A stretch of DNA of 42,368 nucleotides from positions 1 to 42,368 of the forward strand of contig JARNMJ010000038.1 in NCBI GenBank assembly GCA_029432795.1, read 5' to 3'. The notes under the pieces were generated by a model. That model was not told where the DNA came from. It ran no database searches and worked only from the letters and a program-made list of their open reading frames with translations. Made by a program: the position numbers and the translations under genes. Source of the stretch: Pontiellaceae bacterium B12219 (GTDB lineage: Bacteria; Verrucomicrobiota; Kiritimatiellia; Kiritimatiellales; Pontiellaceae). This document shows positions 1,471-5,794 of the stretch, one piece after another. The stretch's first letter is position 1. Each line of letters begins with the position of its first letter.

Positions 1471-3258
1471 ATGAGTAAAGACAAAACATGGATCACTAAA
1501 CTTCCAAAGATTGGAATCCGTCCGACAATCGACGGCCGTTACGGCGGTGTGCGTGAATCGCTTGAAGGTCAGGTCATGAACATGGCCAAGGCCGCAGCAA
1601 AGCACATCAGCGAAAATTTGAAATATCCGAATGGCGAACCGGTAGAGTGTGTAATTTCCGACACTTGCATCGGGGGCGTTGTTGAAGCGGCCGCCTGTGC
1701 GGAAAAGTTTGATGCAGAAAATGTCGGTGTTTCACTGACGGTTACCCCTTGCTGGTGCTACGGCTCCGAAACGATGGACATGGATCCGCTTCGTCCGAAA
1801 GCGGTTTGGGGCTTCAATGGCACGGAGCGTCCCGGTGCTGTTTATCTGGCAGCCGTGCTTGCGGCACATGCGCAGAAAGGTCTTCCGGCCTTTGGAATTT
1901 ACGGGCGCGATGTGCAGGATGCCGGCGACACGTCGATTCCTGCAGACGTTTCTGAAAAGATTCTGCGTTTCACCAAAGCCGGTCTGGCTGCGGCGATGAT
2001 GAAAGGAAAATCATATCTTTCCATGGGCGGTTGTTCGATGGGCATCGGCGGTTCGATTGTGGACCAGCCTTTCTTCGAAGAATATCTGGGCATGCGTGTT
2101 GAAGCGATTGACCTGACCGAAATGCACCGTCGCATCCGGGATGGCATCTATGACGCCGATGAATACGAAAAGGCATTGGCCTGGGTTAAGGAAAACTGCC
2201 CGGAAGGCGAGGATGTGAATTCGCCGGAAACCACCCGTTCGCGCGAGAAGCTCGATGCGGAATGGGAAATGTCCGTGAAAATGGCATTGATTACCGAAGA
2301 CCTGATGTATGGCAATCCGAAGCTGGCTGAAATGGGGTACCAGGAAGAAGCGCGTGGTCATAATGCCATCGTTTCCGGTTTCCAGGGACAGCGTCACTGG
2401 ACGGATGCCTACACCAATGGTGACTTCATGGAAGCGATTTCCAACAGCTCGTTCGACTGGAACGGCATTCGCGCTCCGCGTCTGGTGGCCACTGAAAACG
2501 ATGCCATGAACGGCGTTTCTATGCTTTTCGGTTATTTGCTGACGAATACGGCTCAGGTTTTTGCGGACGTTCGCACGTATTGGAGTCCGGATTCTGTTAA
2601 ACGTGTTACCGGGCATCAGCTCGACGGCGTTGCGAAAGACGGAATCATCCACCTGATCAACTCCGGATCTGCTTCGCTTGATGGCTGCGGTCAGCAGTCG
2701 ATCGATGGTCAGCCGGCCATGAAGCCGTTCTGGGATATTACTGAAGAAGAAAAGGACGCCTGTTTGAAAGCCACCACCTGGCATCCCTCCGTTACGGAAT
2801 ATTTCCCGGGCGGCGGCTGGTCCTCCAAGTTCACTACCAAAGCGGGTATGCCGATCACGATGAGTCGAGTGAATATGGTGAAGGGCCTCGGACCTGTTCT
2901 TCAGATTGCTGAAGGTTGGACGGTTGAACTGCCGGATGATGTGCATAAGGTATTGGATGATCGCACTAACAGCACCTGGCCGACCACGTGGTTTGCTCCG
3001 CGTATCACCGGTAAGGGCGCATTCTCCGACACGTATTCCGTGATGGCGAACTGGGGCGCAAACCATGGTGCCTTCAGCTATGGGCATATTGGTGCAGATC
3101 TCATTTCGCTGGCATCGATCCTTCGCATCCCGGTCTTCATGCACAACGTCGAAGAGGGTGAAATTTTCCGCCCGGCGGCCTGGAGTTCCTACGGTACGAA
3201 TGACCGTGAAGGTGCGGATTTCCGTGCCTGTGCAGCGTACGGTTCGATCTACGGCTAA
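1471..3258 (+). CDS. fucI: L-fucose isomerase
   Basis: Converts L-fucose to L-fuculose (also D-arabinose to D-ribulose in the family), Mn2+-dependent and cytoplasmic. The 595-aa length matches the family (about 590). The three metal/catalytic positions known from the E. coli enzyme are present in their motifs: Glu342 ([10 protein letters not shown]), Asp366 ([10 protein letters not shown]) and His532 ([10 protein letters not shown]). The ATG at 1471 is preceded by AAGGAGA. A strong terminator follows, so it appears monocistronic. No fuculokinase (fucK) or fuculose-phosphate aldolase (fucA) lies in the window, so the rest of the pathway is encoded elsewhere. Codons 11-15 contain one exact copy of the dispersed 15-bp palindrome. 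Confidence 0.96.
1502..1516. repeat. Dispersed palindrome TTCCAA-AGA-TTGGAA (in fucI)
   Basis: Exact copy, inside the coding sequence near the 5' end of fucI. Confidence 0.7.
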
Positions 3259-3280
3259 TAGAACGACGCATCATTCAATT

Positions 3281-3313
3281 CCGCATCCGGCTTTGGCCGG
3301 GTGCGGTTTTTTT
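3281..3313 (+). terminator. Terminator of fucI
   Basis: An 11-bp stem CCGCATCCGGC / GCCGGGTGCGG (one G-T pair) with a TTTG loop and seven T residues. It lies 22 bp after the fucI stop. Confidence 0.93.
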
Positions 3314-3358
3314 GTGCCGGAGGTTGCGCCGCTTCTGCCGCGTGCTACCGTGTTGACT

Positions 3359-4918
3359 ATGTTGGAAAAAATACAGAAAGCGCATGCGCGCATGCGGGAA
3401 AAGCTGCTTGCAGAACAGGGACCGTCCGGCCTTTGGGAGGGTGAAGTTTCGAGTTCGGCGATGGCCACGGCGGTGGCTGCGTTTACGCTGAAACTGGCGG
3501 GAAATACCGAGCCCGCACTGCGCGGGTTCCAATGGTTGGAAACCGATCGCCACGACGACGGCGGGTGGGGCGATTGTCCGGAAGGGCCGAGTACGTTTAT
3601 CACCACGCTTTTATGCCGTTGCGCGCTGAATATGGAAATCGGTGATCCGGGAAAAGTTGCTGCTGAAGTGATCCGGTTATACGGCCGCGACCTTTCGCAG
3701 TCGGTGCCGGTGTTGGCCATGAGTATGTTTTCCCGCAAGCTGGGCGATGAAGGTTCGGTGATTCCCCGGCTGCCGTTCAACCGCCTGTTTTTTCCCCGTA
3801 AACTATTTCGCTTTCTGAATCTGCCGATGGTCAGCACCGGGCTTCCTTTTCCGCTGGCGATGGGCATTGTTCATCCGGACCGTCGTAAACGGGCAGAAAA
3901 AACCTTAAAAGCCATAGCTTCGGTTCAGTCGGAAAACGGCAGTTTTATGGACCAGATTCCACTGACTGGATTTGTGGCGATGGCGTTGATCGGCGCGGGA
4001 CAGAAGGAGCACCCCGCCACTCAGAACTGCATTCGGTTTCTGGAGCAAACGGTTCGTGCCGACGGCAGCTGGCCGGTTGAAAAAAGTCCTTCGGTTTGGC
4101 TGACGTCGCTTGCCGTCCAGACTTTGGAAGGGGATGTTTCCGGGGATTGGCAGGAGCGGGCGCGCGATGCACTGGTTCGCGAGCAGCTTCAGGAGGCCCA
4201 CCCATTGAATCCGGCGGAGCCGGGCGGCTGGGGGCGGGGCGGTTTGCCGAACGCAATGGATACGGCTGCAGCTTTGGTTGCATTGCATCAGTTGGGATGT
4301 GATGTGGCGGTGGCTGAAAAAGGGGTGTTCTGGCTGCTGGAGGTGCAGAATCGGGACGGAGGAGTACCGACGTTTTGCAAGGGATGGGATCAGTCGCCGC
4401 GGGATAAAAGTGCGCCGGATGTTACCGCGCTTGCGATCCGCGCGTGGGCTTGTTGGCGGGATCAACTGGATGAAAATTATTTTGCGGCCATTTTTGATTC
4501 GATTCAGATTGCCGTGGAATTTCTGGAAAAACAGCAACGCAAAGACGGGGCCTGGGAGTCGCTTTGGTTCGGCAGTCCGGTTTGCGGAACGGCGCGGGTG
4601 CTGGAGGCATTGCTGGAATTGAATCTGAAGGAATTTCCAAAGGTTGAAAGAATGCTGCAGCGCGGGTTCCAATGGTTGGAAACCGCGGAGCAGGACGATG
4701 CTGTTCCGGTTGAAGAGCGCGCGCTGATTGCGGGGCTGACGGGGAATGGGGCGGAATTGCTGCCGGAGATGGCGGAGAGCGATGTTTCAGCGGGTGCGGT
4801 CGGGATCAATTTTGCGGGCCTGCGGTATTCGGAACGGTTGTATCCGCTCTTTTTTGCAGGGGATGCATTGAAGCGGGGCTGCCGGAAATCCTCGGAAGAA
4901 AAGCATGAATCTGAGTAA
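3359..4918 (+). CDS. Squalene-hopene-cyclase-like (prenyltransferase/squalene oxidase repeat) protein
   Basis: This 519-aa protein is built of alpha/alpha-barrel repeats with QW-type motifs: residues 56-72 (GFQWL..DRHDDGGWGD), 234-238 (ADGSW), 329-335 (VQNRDGG) and 392-399 (QQRKDGAW). The order of blocks (GGW...DTAAALVAL, then VQNRDGG...PDVTALAI, then QQRKDGAW...GTARVLEAL) follows the C-terminal half of squalene-hopene cyclases. The position of the catalytic DxDD acid motif reads N298-A-M-D301, so the proton-donating Asp is replaced by Met. It is shorter than classical cyclases (about 630 aa), with no signal peptide. The start at 3359 lies after the fucI terminator; a GTG at 3350 is also possible, and no clear ribosome-binding site is seen. 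Family assignment is good; substrate and activity are unknown. Confidence 0.8.
   Translation: MLEKIQKAHARMREKLLAEQGPSGLWEGEVSSSAMATAVAAFTLKLAGNTEPALRGFQWLETDRHDDGGWGDCPEGPSTFITTLLCRCALNMEIGDPGKVAAEVIRLYGRDLSQSVPVLAMSMFSRKLGDEGSVIPRLPFNRLFFPRKLFRFLNLPMVSTGLPFPLAMGIVHPDRRKRAEKTLKAIASVQSENGSFMDQIPLTGFVAMALIGAGQKEHPATQNCIRFLEQTVRADGSWPVEKSPSVWLTSLAVQTLEGDVSGDWQERARDALVREQLQEAHPLNPAEPGGWGRGGLPNAMDTAAALVALHQLGCDVAVAEKGVFWLLEVQNRDGGVPTFCKGWDQSPRDKSAPDVTALAIRAWACWRDQLDENYFAAIFDSIQIAVEFLEKQQRKDGAWESLWFGSPVCGTARVLEALLELNLKEFPKVERMLQRGFQWLETAEQDDAVPVEERALIAGLTGNGAELLPEMAESDVSAGAVGINFAGLRYSERLYPLFFAGDALKRGCRKSSEEKHESE
3527..3541. repeat. Dispersed palindrome TTCCAA-TGG-TTGGAA (in cyclase-like gene, copy 1)
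   Basis: Exact copy encoding part of the RGFQWLET repeat (residues 55-62). The surrounding 24 nt (3521-3544) recur identically at 4661-4684. Confidence 0.7.
4667..4681. repeat. Dispersed palindrome TTCCAA-TGG-TTGGAA (in cyclase-like gene, copy 2)
   Basis: Exact copy encoding the second RGFQWLET (residues 435-442). A one-mismatch copy (TTCCAA-AGG-TTGAAA) lies just upstream at 4635-4649. Confidence 0.7.
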
Positions 4919-4920
4919 AA

Positions 4921-4940
4921 TGCAGACAGGCCTGTCTGCA
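4921..4940. promoter_or_regulatory. Perfect 20-bp palindrome between the cyclase-like and beta-lactamase-like genes
   Basis: TGCAGACAGGCCTGTCTGCA is fully self-complementary with no loop. It starts 2 bp after one stop codon and lies 81 bp before the next gene. It could be an operator for a dimeric regulator, or a transcript-end hairpin, though no T-run follows. Confidence 0.5.
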
Positions 4941-5020
4941 GGGACCTGAAAAGTTATACGCAGGATTTCATCAGTTTTAATCCGGATTCGGGGTGATATT
5001 TTTTTGGAACAAGGGTCGAT

Positions 5021-5794
5021 ATGAGAGTTGTTTTAGCGGTTATTCTATGTTTTTCGGGGCTTCAGGTCCGGGCGCAAACCTTTATAAGTGATGCCGAAAT
5101 TAATGTGTTATTCCGGGACATGAATGTGGAGGGCACTTTTGTTGTTTTTGATGCGCAAAGAGGTACCTATACCGCGCATGACCCTTCGCGTGCTGAAAAG
5201 CAGTATGTTCCCGCATCCACCTTTAAAATTGCAAACAGCCTGATCGGTCTTGCCGTCGGCGCAGTGAAAAATGTTGATGAAGTTCTGCCGTATGGCGGTG
5301 AAAAACAGCCGGTCTCTGCCTGGGAAAATGACATGAGTTTGCGGGAGGCCATTGCGGTTTCCAATGTTCCTGTTTATCAGGAACTTGCGCGGCGCATCGG
5401 TTTAGAGCAGATGCAGAAAAATATTTCCATGCTGAAGTATGGAAACGGTGAAGTTGGAACGGTGAATGATAAATTCTGGCTGGAAGGACCGCTGAAAATC
5501 AGTGCGGTGGAGCAGACGGAATTTTTGGCGAAATTAGCAAAAAATGAACTGCCGTTTTCAGAAAATATTCAAACCAGCGTTCGTGACCTCATTAAGCTGG
5601 AGGAGGGCAAGGGGTGGGTGCTTTATGGCAAAACCGGTTGGGCCCGGGAAATCGGATGGTGGGTTGGCTGGGTTGAAAGAAGCGGTGCAGTTTACAGTTT
5701 CGCTTTAAATATGGATATGAAGGATATCGAGCAGGCTCCGCTGCGGGTTAAACTGGGTAAAGACGGTCTCAGAATTCTCGGTATTCTTGATTAA
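5021..5794 (+). CDS. Class D (OXA-type) beta-lactamase-like protein
   Basis: A 257-aa secreted serine hydrolase that acylates beta-lactams at an active-site Ser in the periplasm. A signal peptide spans about residues 1-19 (cleavage near VRAQ). All class D motifs are in order: S66-T-F-K69 (PASTFKI), S114-N-V116, Y140-G-N142, W153 (KFWLEGPLKIS) and K204-T-G206. The length and the conserved Trp match true class D enzymes rather than the BlaR sensor, which would be membrane-anchored and longer. An AAGGGT precedes the ATG. It is not accompanied by a regulator, IS or integron, so it is probably an intrinsic chromosomal gene. Whether it confers resistance cannot be told from sequence. Confidence 0.9.
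   Translation: MRVVLAVILCFSGLQVRAQTFISDAEINVLFRDMNVEGTFVVFDAQRGTYTAHDPSRAEKQYVPASTFKIANSLIGLAVGAVKNVDEVLPYGGEKQPVSAWENDMSLREAIAVSNVPVYQELARRIGLEQMQKNISMLKYGNGEVGTVNDKFWLEGPLKISAVEQTEFLAKLAKNELPFSENIQTSVRDLIKLEEGKGWVLYGKTGWAREIGWWVGWVERSGAVYSFALNMDMKDIEQAPLRVKLGKDGLRILGILD

Follow-up and report, generated by a model that had tools for sequence, protein, structure and literature searches.

The closest described system to the protein considered here is the squalene-hopene cyclase (SHC) of entries 1gsz and 3sqc, which we take to be that of Alicyclobacillus acidocaldarius. His451 of this enzyme has a catalytic role. Bacterial class II sesqui- and diterpene cyclases act on prenyl diphosphates (for 5bp8, by its name). 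For class II cyclases in general, passages of two papers assign the role of general acid to the central (middle) Asp of the DxDD motif (PMC9814783; PMC11795633). Both the fold and the superfamily are known, and a natural, selected class II cyclase lacking this acid would be new; a literature search of titles and abstract openings, whose coverage is partial, returned no such case.

Here we describe a candidate for such a protein. It is encoded in the window (the whole 42,368-nucleotide stretch of DNA that was analysed, contig C205 of a 4.75-Mb draft genome, 96% complete, in 273 contigs) by a frame that runs from ATG to TAA, specifies 519 amino acids, and is open throughout (Table 1). Its likeness to Alicyclobacillus SHC is that of a superfamily member: the family profile matches 1gsz at E 4.6e-47 with the DxDD motif and the D447-H451 block in register, and QW-type repeats are shared. 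The window copy differs in reading NAMD, in carrying Leu for H451, and in its length (519 versus 631 residues). The proteins 5bp8 (ent-copalyl diphosphate synthase), 7xq4, and 8zg0 ('cyclase C-terminal domain-containing') are of similar size, 514-539 residues, and have a related C-terminal domain (profile E 6e-20 to 3e-11). By analogy, use of a prenyl diphosphate is also suggested for the window family by its companion polyprenyl synthase, but these proteins are more distant by score than SHC, and the window copy is without the acid. The direct orthologues are found in the same genus and order (among them those of genomes G005, G016, and G001); over 11 aligned rows, their identity to the window protein ranges from 47 to 58% (58% for G016) and, in contrast to it, they keep DADD, TAH, PFDRSC, and GLYFASLWY.

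Table 1. Coordinates of the features discussed, as positions in the window
Feature	Position	Strand	Basis
L-fucose isomerase gene (fucI), upstream neighbour	1471..3258	+	Profile match, relatives' regions
Hairpin resembling a terminator, with T-run, in the interval from fucI to the cyclase ATG	3281..3306	+	11-pair stem
Class II terpene cyclase (SQHop_cyclase) homologue, intact frame	3359..4918	+	ORF, Pfam, phmmer, profile matches
26-bp direct repeat, first copy; holds TTCCAATGGTTGGAA, codes GFQWLET	3520..3545	+	Repeat search
Site of an in-frame gap of four residues, G292/R293, shortly before the motif; most relatives have WTxx here	4229..4240	+	Alignments
N298-A299-M300-D301 replacing DxDD (D374-V375-D376-D377 of Alicyclobacillus SHC)	4250..4261	+	Alignments
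Altered GWGKLPFDRSCPDLTAH block, reads GWDQSPRDKSAPDVTAL; F348R, C352A, H358L	4382..4432	+	Alignments, invariant-site comparison
L358 replacing the His aligned with H451 of SHC (TAH)	4430..4432	+	phmmer, profile, row alignment
26-bp direct repeat, second copy	4660..4685	+	Repeat search
Altered C-terminal PIGLYFASLWYSEKLYP block, reads AVGINFAGLRYSERLYP; Y484N, W489R	4796..4846	+	Alignments, invariant-site comparison
Class D beta-lactamase family gene, downstream neighbour	5021..5794	+	NF012161, 291.2 bits versus cut-off 250

Results

Judged by its sequence, the window protein is a member of the squalene/hopene cyclase superfamily, as an earlier note on this DNA had proposed. Both Pfam domains score above their curated cut-offs, SQHop_cyclase_C (PF13243) with E 3.5e-21 and 76 bits against 26.1 and SQHop_cyclase_N (PF13249) with E 5.3e-10 and 39.4 bits against 26.2. 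A phmmer comparison with 1gsz (E 3.7e-8) aligns PNAMDTA with PDVDDTA (residues 373-379), and the profile, built from 19 sequences that take in the window protein itself, puts the motif in the identical register. The score against the hopene cyclase equivalog model TIGR01507 is 56.8, below the cut-off of 431.1, and the DADD orthologue of G005 also falls short of it (74.2). A structure prediction made from two sequences was helical but not confident (mean pLDDT 50.6, pTM 0.44) and too poor to show a pocket. The product would most likely be an alpha-alpha toroid unable to start cyclisation in the known way. One other open reading frame of the same genome (contig C204, 528 aa) also matches PF13243; by eye it is a different repeat protein, and it was set aside.

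The first Asp of DxDD has become Asn298, the central acid has become Met300, and the third Asp is retained as D301 (D377). The NAMD reading at this position, given in the earlier note, thus holds in both alignments to 1gsz, although the residue in place of the central Asp is Met300 and not Met299, as had been written there. An alternative DxDD elsewhere at the active site would have spoken against that reading; a search of all 519 residues found none. The change from Asp to Met takes three base changes (GAY to ATG). Further on, the PDVTAL of the window protein lies under E446-D447-V-T-A-H451 of SHC, so that D447 is retained as D354 and H451 is replaced by Leu358. A His at this position is not universal, as two homologues (L021 and L031) are without it yet have DxDD. 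The PFDRSC block, GLYFASLWY, the aligned His, and the four residues before the motif are all changed or lost, whereas QW-type and other structural residues are retained. Neither a DxDD with its central Asp nor a His at the H451 position, the two marks of a catalytic class II enzyme considered here, is present in the window protein. From these losses, and from the lack in its genome of the companion genes (below) that probably provide the substrate, it has probably ceased to work as a ring-forming terpene enzyme and survives either as a relic or in some other role.

A search of 97 genomes (the source genome and 96 relatives) gave a cyclase match in 29, of which 26, including the source genome, are strong; G050, G084, and G086, with E values of 8.7e-5 to 8.1e-4, were not counted as cyclase genomes. 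A scan of genome contigs turned up L031, with 28% identity (9e-39), and L032, a short match (4e-4). Rows were aligned when their E value was better than 1e-30, which left out L026, L027, L028, and L032; L029 had no match, and L030 was aligned but does not cover the motif. Each of the 25 other aligned homologues spanning the motif has DADD, DGDD, or DVDD there. The same holds for the frameshifted G075 homologue that the E-value threshold excluded, which is also DADD. Twelve of the 28 genomes of the genus have a cyclase match, and the 11 besides the source genome are all among the DxDD rows. We therefore rejected NAMD as the conserved motif of a subfamily, a possibility that the earlier note had asked to have checked; in the aligned sequences, the loss of DxDD is private to the window lineage among the genomes compared. 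The G075 homologue itself (L026; G075:C11:27828-29347) is split over three frames with DADD intact, and its frameshifts are either real or derived from assembly.

The motif is one of many differences. Sites invariant in relatives were compared in two sets of rows, with L013, L015, L016, L030, and L031 left out. Over 12 full-length order-level rows, the window copy broke 81 of the 242 sites invariant in its 11 relatives, among them H358L, whereas each relative broke 1-6 of 162-167. In a class-level set of 22 rows it broke 22 of 100 and kept 78, as against 0-8 of 78-86 for the others. The class-level breaks include D298N, D300M, F348R, P401S, Y484N, W489R, and part of the four-residue gap before the motif. 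The earlier note would have taken a DxDD conserved in close orthologues as a sign of a sequencing error here. Close orthologues do keep it, but an error is ruled out because the copy carries so many other lineage-specific changes. A tree built on all columns, motif columns included, places the window protein in a clade with the G016 and G001 proteins (support 95/90), where its end branch is 0.84 compared with 0.18 and 0.13. Longer end branches occur in five class-level or outer rows (L031, L019, L020, L021, and L024), so that the length as such is unremarkable and stands out only against the genus of the window protein. The neighbouring fucI shares 91% identity with the orthologues of G016 and G005, as compared with 58% between the window and G016 cyclases.

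Purpose-written codon models were fitted to 508 codons from five taxa, in which the window contributes one lineage and long branches approach saturation at synonymous sites, and in this setting omega was 0.244 on the window branch versus 0.106 in the background (2dlnL 13.4 against equality); omega = 1 on the window branch was rejected (2dlnL 52). Allowing two classes of sites gave a relaxation parameter k of 0.42 (2dlnL 67 versus k = 1), and full neutrality, k = 0, was rejected (2dlnL 79). A model in which the gene was constrained and then neutral fitted 8.2 log units worse than continuous relaxation; it expects 6.0 stop codons in the neutral part, and none is present (P = 0.0024). These models are simple, and on the neutral scale the window branch has accumulated about 3 changes per codon. 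Constraint is relaxed but present, which we take as moderate, not decisive, evidence that a protein is still selected.

In relatives, the cyclase gene has company. Of the 20 regions fetched, at levels ranging from the genus up to the class, 14 (L033-L044, L046, and L051) have a fusion of DUF116 with a polyprenyl synthase near it. Clustering of the open reading frames of these 20 regions, with gene names taken from Pfam, gave three propeller families, one of PQQ type in 11 regions and the others in 9 and 8; a 265-residue toroid protein and a 4Fe-4S protein in 11 each; an NHL protein and a NapH-like Fe-S protein in 7 each (the latter named from NCBIfam at a score below the cut-off); a ferredoxin and a glyoxalase-type protein in 5 each; and a radical-SAM protein in 4. 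Over its first 14 kb, the window has no gene apart from the cyclase that falls in these families. Genome-wide, 24 of the 26 strong-cyclase genomes have the DUF116-polyprenyl synthase (at least 316 bits), 23 have the toroid partner (weakest 2.3e-5), and 25 have the Fe-S partner (E <= 1.0e-22). The source genome is the sole one of the 26 that lacks all three at orthologue level; it has only a polyprenyl synthase of generic kind (3.6e-25) and a short match of ferredoxin type (8.8e-7). The other genome without the DUF116 fusion, G023, is a 490-contig draft in which the Fe-S gene is present. In G069 the three tested partners occur with no cyclase match at E 1e-3.

Squalene/phytoene synthase (SQS_PSY, PF00494) was matched in 10 of the 97 genomes. 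Five of the 10 are cyclase genomes, which number 26, and the source genome gave no match. Because squalene synthase is missing from 21 of the 26 (20 of the 25 others), squalene is probably not the substrate of this cyclase family; in its place, our natural guess is a prenyl diphosphate made by the companion synthase. A squalene/hopanoid pathway in the source organism was set aside, as the genome has no SQS_PSY match and the cyclase no recognised hopanoid neighbours. A term search of two Pontiella papers, one of them PMC7356697, brought up menaquinones, reported in P. desulfatans and P. sulfatireligans, and hopanoids solely in the title of a reference.

The window copy also sits in a different genomic place. 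Its scanned neighbours, an AraC regulator, fucI, and the class D beta-lactamase gene, agree with the earlier observation that no hopanoid genes are adjacent. fucI was found in 6 of 11 genomes searched, and neither the cyclase nor the beta-lactamase was matched in the fucI regions of these six relatives, where the gene after fucI is, by eye, transporter-like in G016, G001, G021, and G025, a small membrane protein gene in G005, and another gene in G004. The cyclase ATG lies 52 bases past the terminator-like hairpin, which has the longest stem of the 4 terminator-like sites found in positions 3200-5100 (3.2 expected). In the same interval no sigma-70-type match was found. No ribosome-binding site was seen by eye just 5' of the ATG, where G001 and G005 have AAGGA, and no remnant of the 3' end of an upstream partner was evident there by eye.

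One further genome, G060, has two cyclase genes. A partial one (query residues 6-257) lies on contig C149 (L087) next to the genes for the polyprenyl synthase, the toroid protein, and the Fe-S protein. The other, which is full-length, with DGDD and no conserved His, is on contig C50 (L088; L021), whose 3.7 kb are too short to show its surroundings. The latter shows the most class-level breaks after the window copy (8 of 86). Duplication, with looser constraint on the copy away from the cluster, may thus have occurred elsewhere too. No genome of the genus has two full cyclase copies, the two matches in G012 being non-overlapping pieces on two contigs.

Discussion

The explanation that we prefer, with about even confidence, is that a class II cyclase has lost both its protonation chemistry and its pathway, and that what is left is more likely a retained non-catalytic protein than a plain pseudogene. 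The gene would descend from a protonation-initiated class II cyclase that, in relatives, often stands near its own DUF116-fusion polyprenyl diphosphate synthase. By analogy with known class II enzymes, these relatives probably protonate the terminal alkene of a prenyl substrate through the central Asp of DADD. In the window lineage, the tested partner genes are gone, the cyclase stands behind fucI, and the residues of proton delivery (the first Asp, the central Asp, and the aligned His) have been lost along with several other conserved residues of the family while structural residues were kept. These points are shown by the data above, as are the homology and an evolution that is accelerated but constrained; we infer the loss of catalysis and the order of these events, as well as any binding role: the window protein could now be a non-catalytic toroid that, for example, binds an isoprenoid or a protein partner. 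More specifically, and only tentatively, we propose a pseudoenzyme, in which the cyclase became an isoprenoid-binding or scaffold protein after loss of the cluster and evolves under measurable selection. The earlier note offered three readings, namely use of another acid, action on another substrate, or a relative without catalysis. The last is the one favoured here, since the central acid, the first Asp, the His, and further conserved positions are lost together. The reading of another substrate stands in part: a substrate other than squalene is likely, but for the whole family and not specifically for the window copy.

How firmly this explanation can be held depends on several alternatives. 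The main rival, which we consider rather unlikely but serious, is that the pathway was lost recently and the gene is a plain pseudogene in early decay, without protein function and with a frame that is open by luck. The absence of the three tested partners, the relaxed constraint, and the position of the gene past a terminator-like hairpin are consistent with it, and the missing promoter match and ribosome-binding site, which fit a silent gene, count against our preferred explanation. However, both forms of full neutrality on the branch were rejected, a switch to neutrality fits worse and predicts stop codons that are not there, and the frame is open throughout with more than three-quarters of the class-level invariant sites (78 of 100) intact. 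Because the codon evidence shows weak selection, a retained protein seems the likelier of the two. The residual selection on the frame would equally suit a protein that is still an enzyme, using another acid such as D301 or D354, or acting on a different, more easily protonated substrate. Many fold-type residues are kept, as would also suit such an enzyme, and D301 (D377) and D354 (D447) leave some acid near the site, which in addition speaks against our preferred explanation. We nevertheless regard a surviving enzyme as unlikely, as Met stands at the position of the central Asp and Leu at that of the aligned His, the changes extend to the PFDRSC, GLYF, and LWY blocks, and the usual companion polyprenyl synthase is absent.

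The two remaining alternatives concern the genome and not the protein. The window gene could be a diverged second copy, with a DxDD gene and its cluster in an unassembled part of the genome, which is 96% and not 100% complete. Since G060 has two copies, one partial by the cluster (C149) and one full-length with DGDD (C50), such a hidden copy in the window species is conceivable and weighs against our preferred explanation. The joint absence of three partner genes and the lack of any genome in the genus with two full copies (G012 having two non-overlapping pieces) make it quite improbable. Finally, a sequencing error, a misassembly, or a contaminant contig might be suspected in a draft of 273 contigs when close orthologues have DxDD. 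This is very unlikely indeed: the 81 lineage-specific breaks lie within an open frame, the change from Asp to Met needs three base changes, fucI shares 91% identity with that of G016 and of G005, and the cyclase groups in the same genus.

If the protein has been kept for binding, it would be a natural case of a terpene cyclase fold without the chemistry, for which the close DADD relatives provide controls. The gene is also a caution against annotating its like as squalene cyclases. A larger lead comes from the relatives, in whose cluster a DxDD cyclase is found near a DUF116-polyprenyl-synthase fusion, with Fe-S proteins, propellers of PQQ type (PQQ_2), and sometimes a radical-SAM protein, for the most part in genomes that lack squalene synthase. 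This composition hints at an isoprenoid linked to electron transfer. A literature search by title and abstract opening, with partial coverage, showed no description of the cluster.

A separate observation concerns a short palindrome within the cyclase gene. The family of TTTCCAATGGTTGGAAA and its variants has 15 matches (up to 3 mismatches) at 13 distinct places in the window, versus 0.23 expected; the sites include 3526, 4666, 13642, 21591, 23568, 35114, 36942, 36988, and 41128. In the looser form TTCCA-N3..7-TGGAA there are 15 sites, 6 of them intergenic by a rough gene list, where four control palindromes gave 1, 0, 0, and 0. Exact copies of TTTCCAATGGTTGGAAA number 30 in the source genome, 57 in G016, and 52 in G001, and they occur in 14 of the 28 genomes of the genus; a reversed control gave 0. 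The family could be a REP-like element or the site of a regulator. Two of its copies fall inside the cyclase gene, where they encode a QW motif, and the same is seen in three homologues (L002, L003, and L007).
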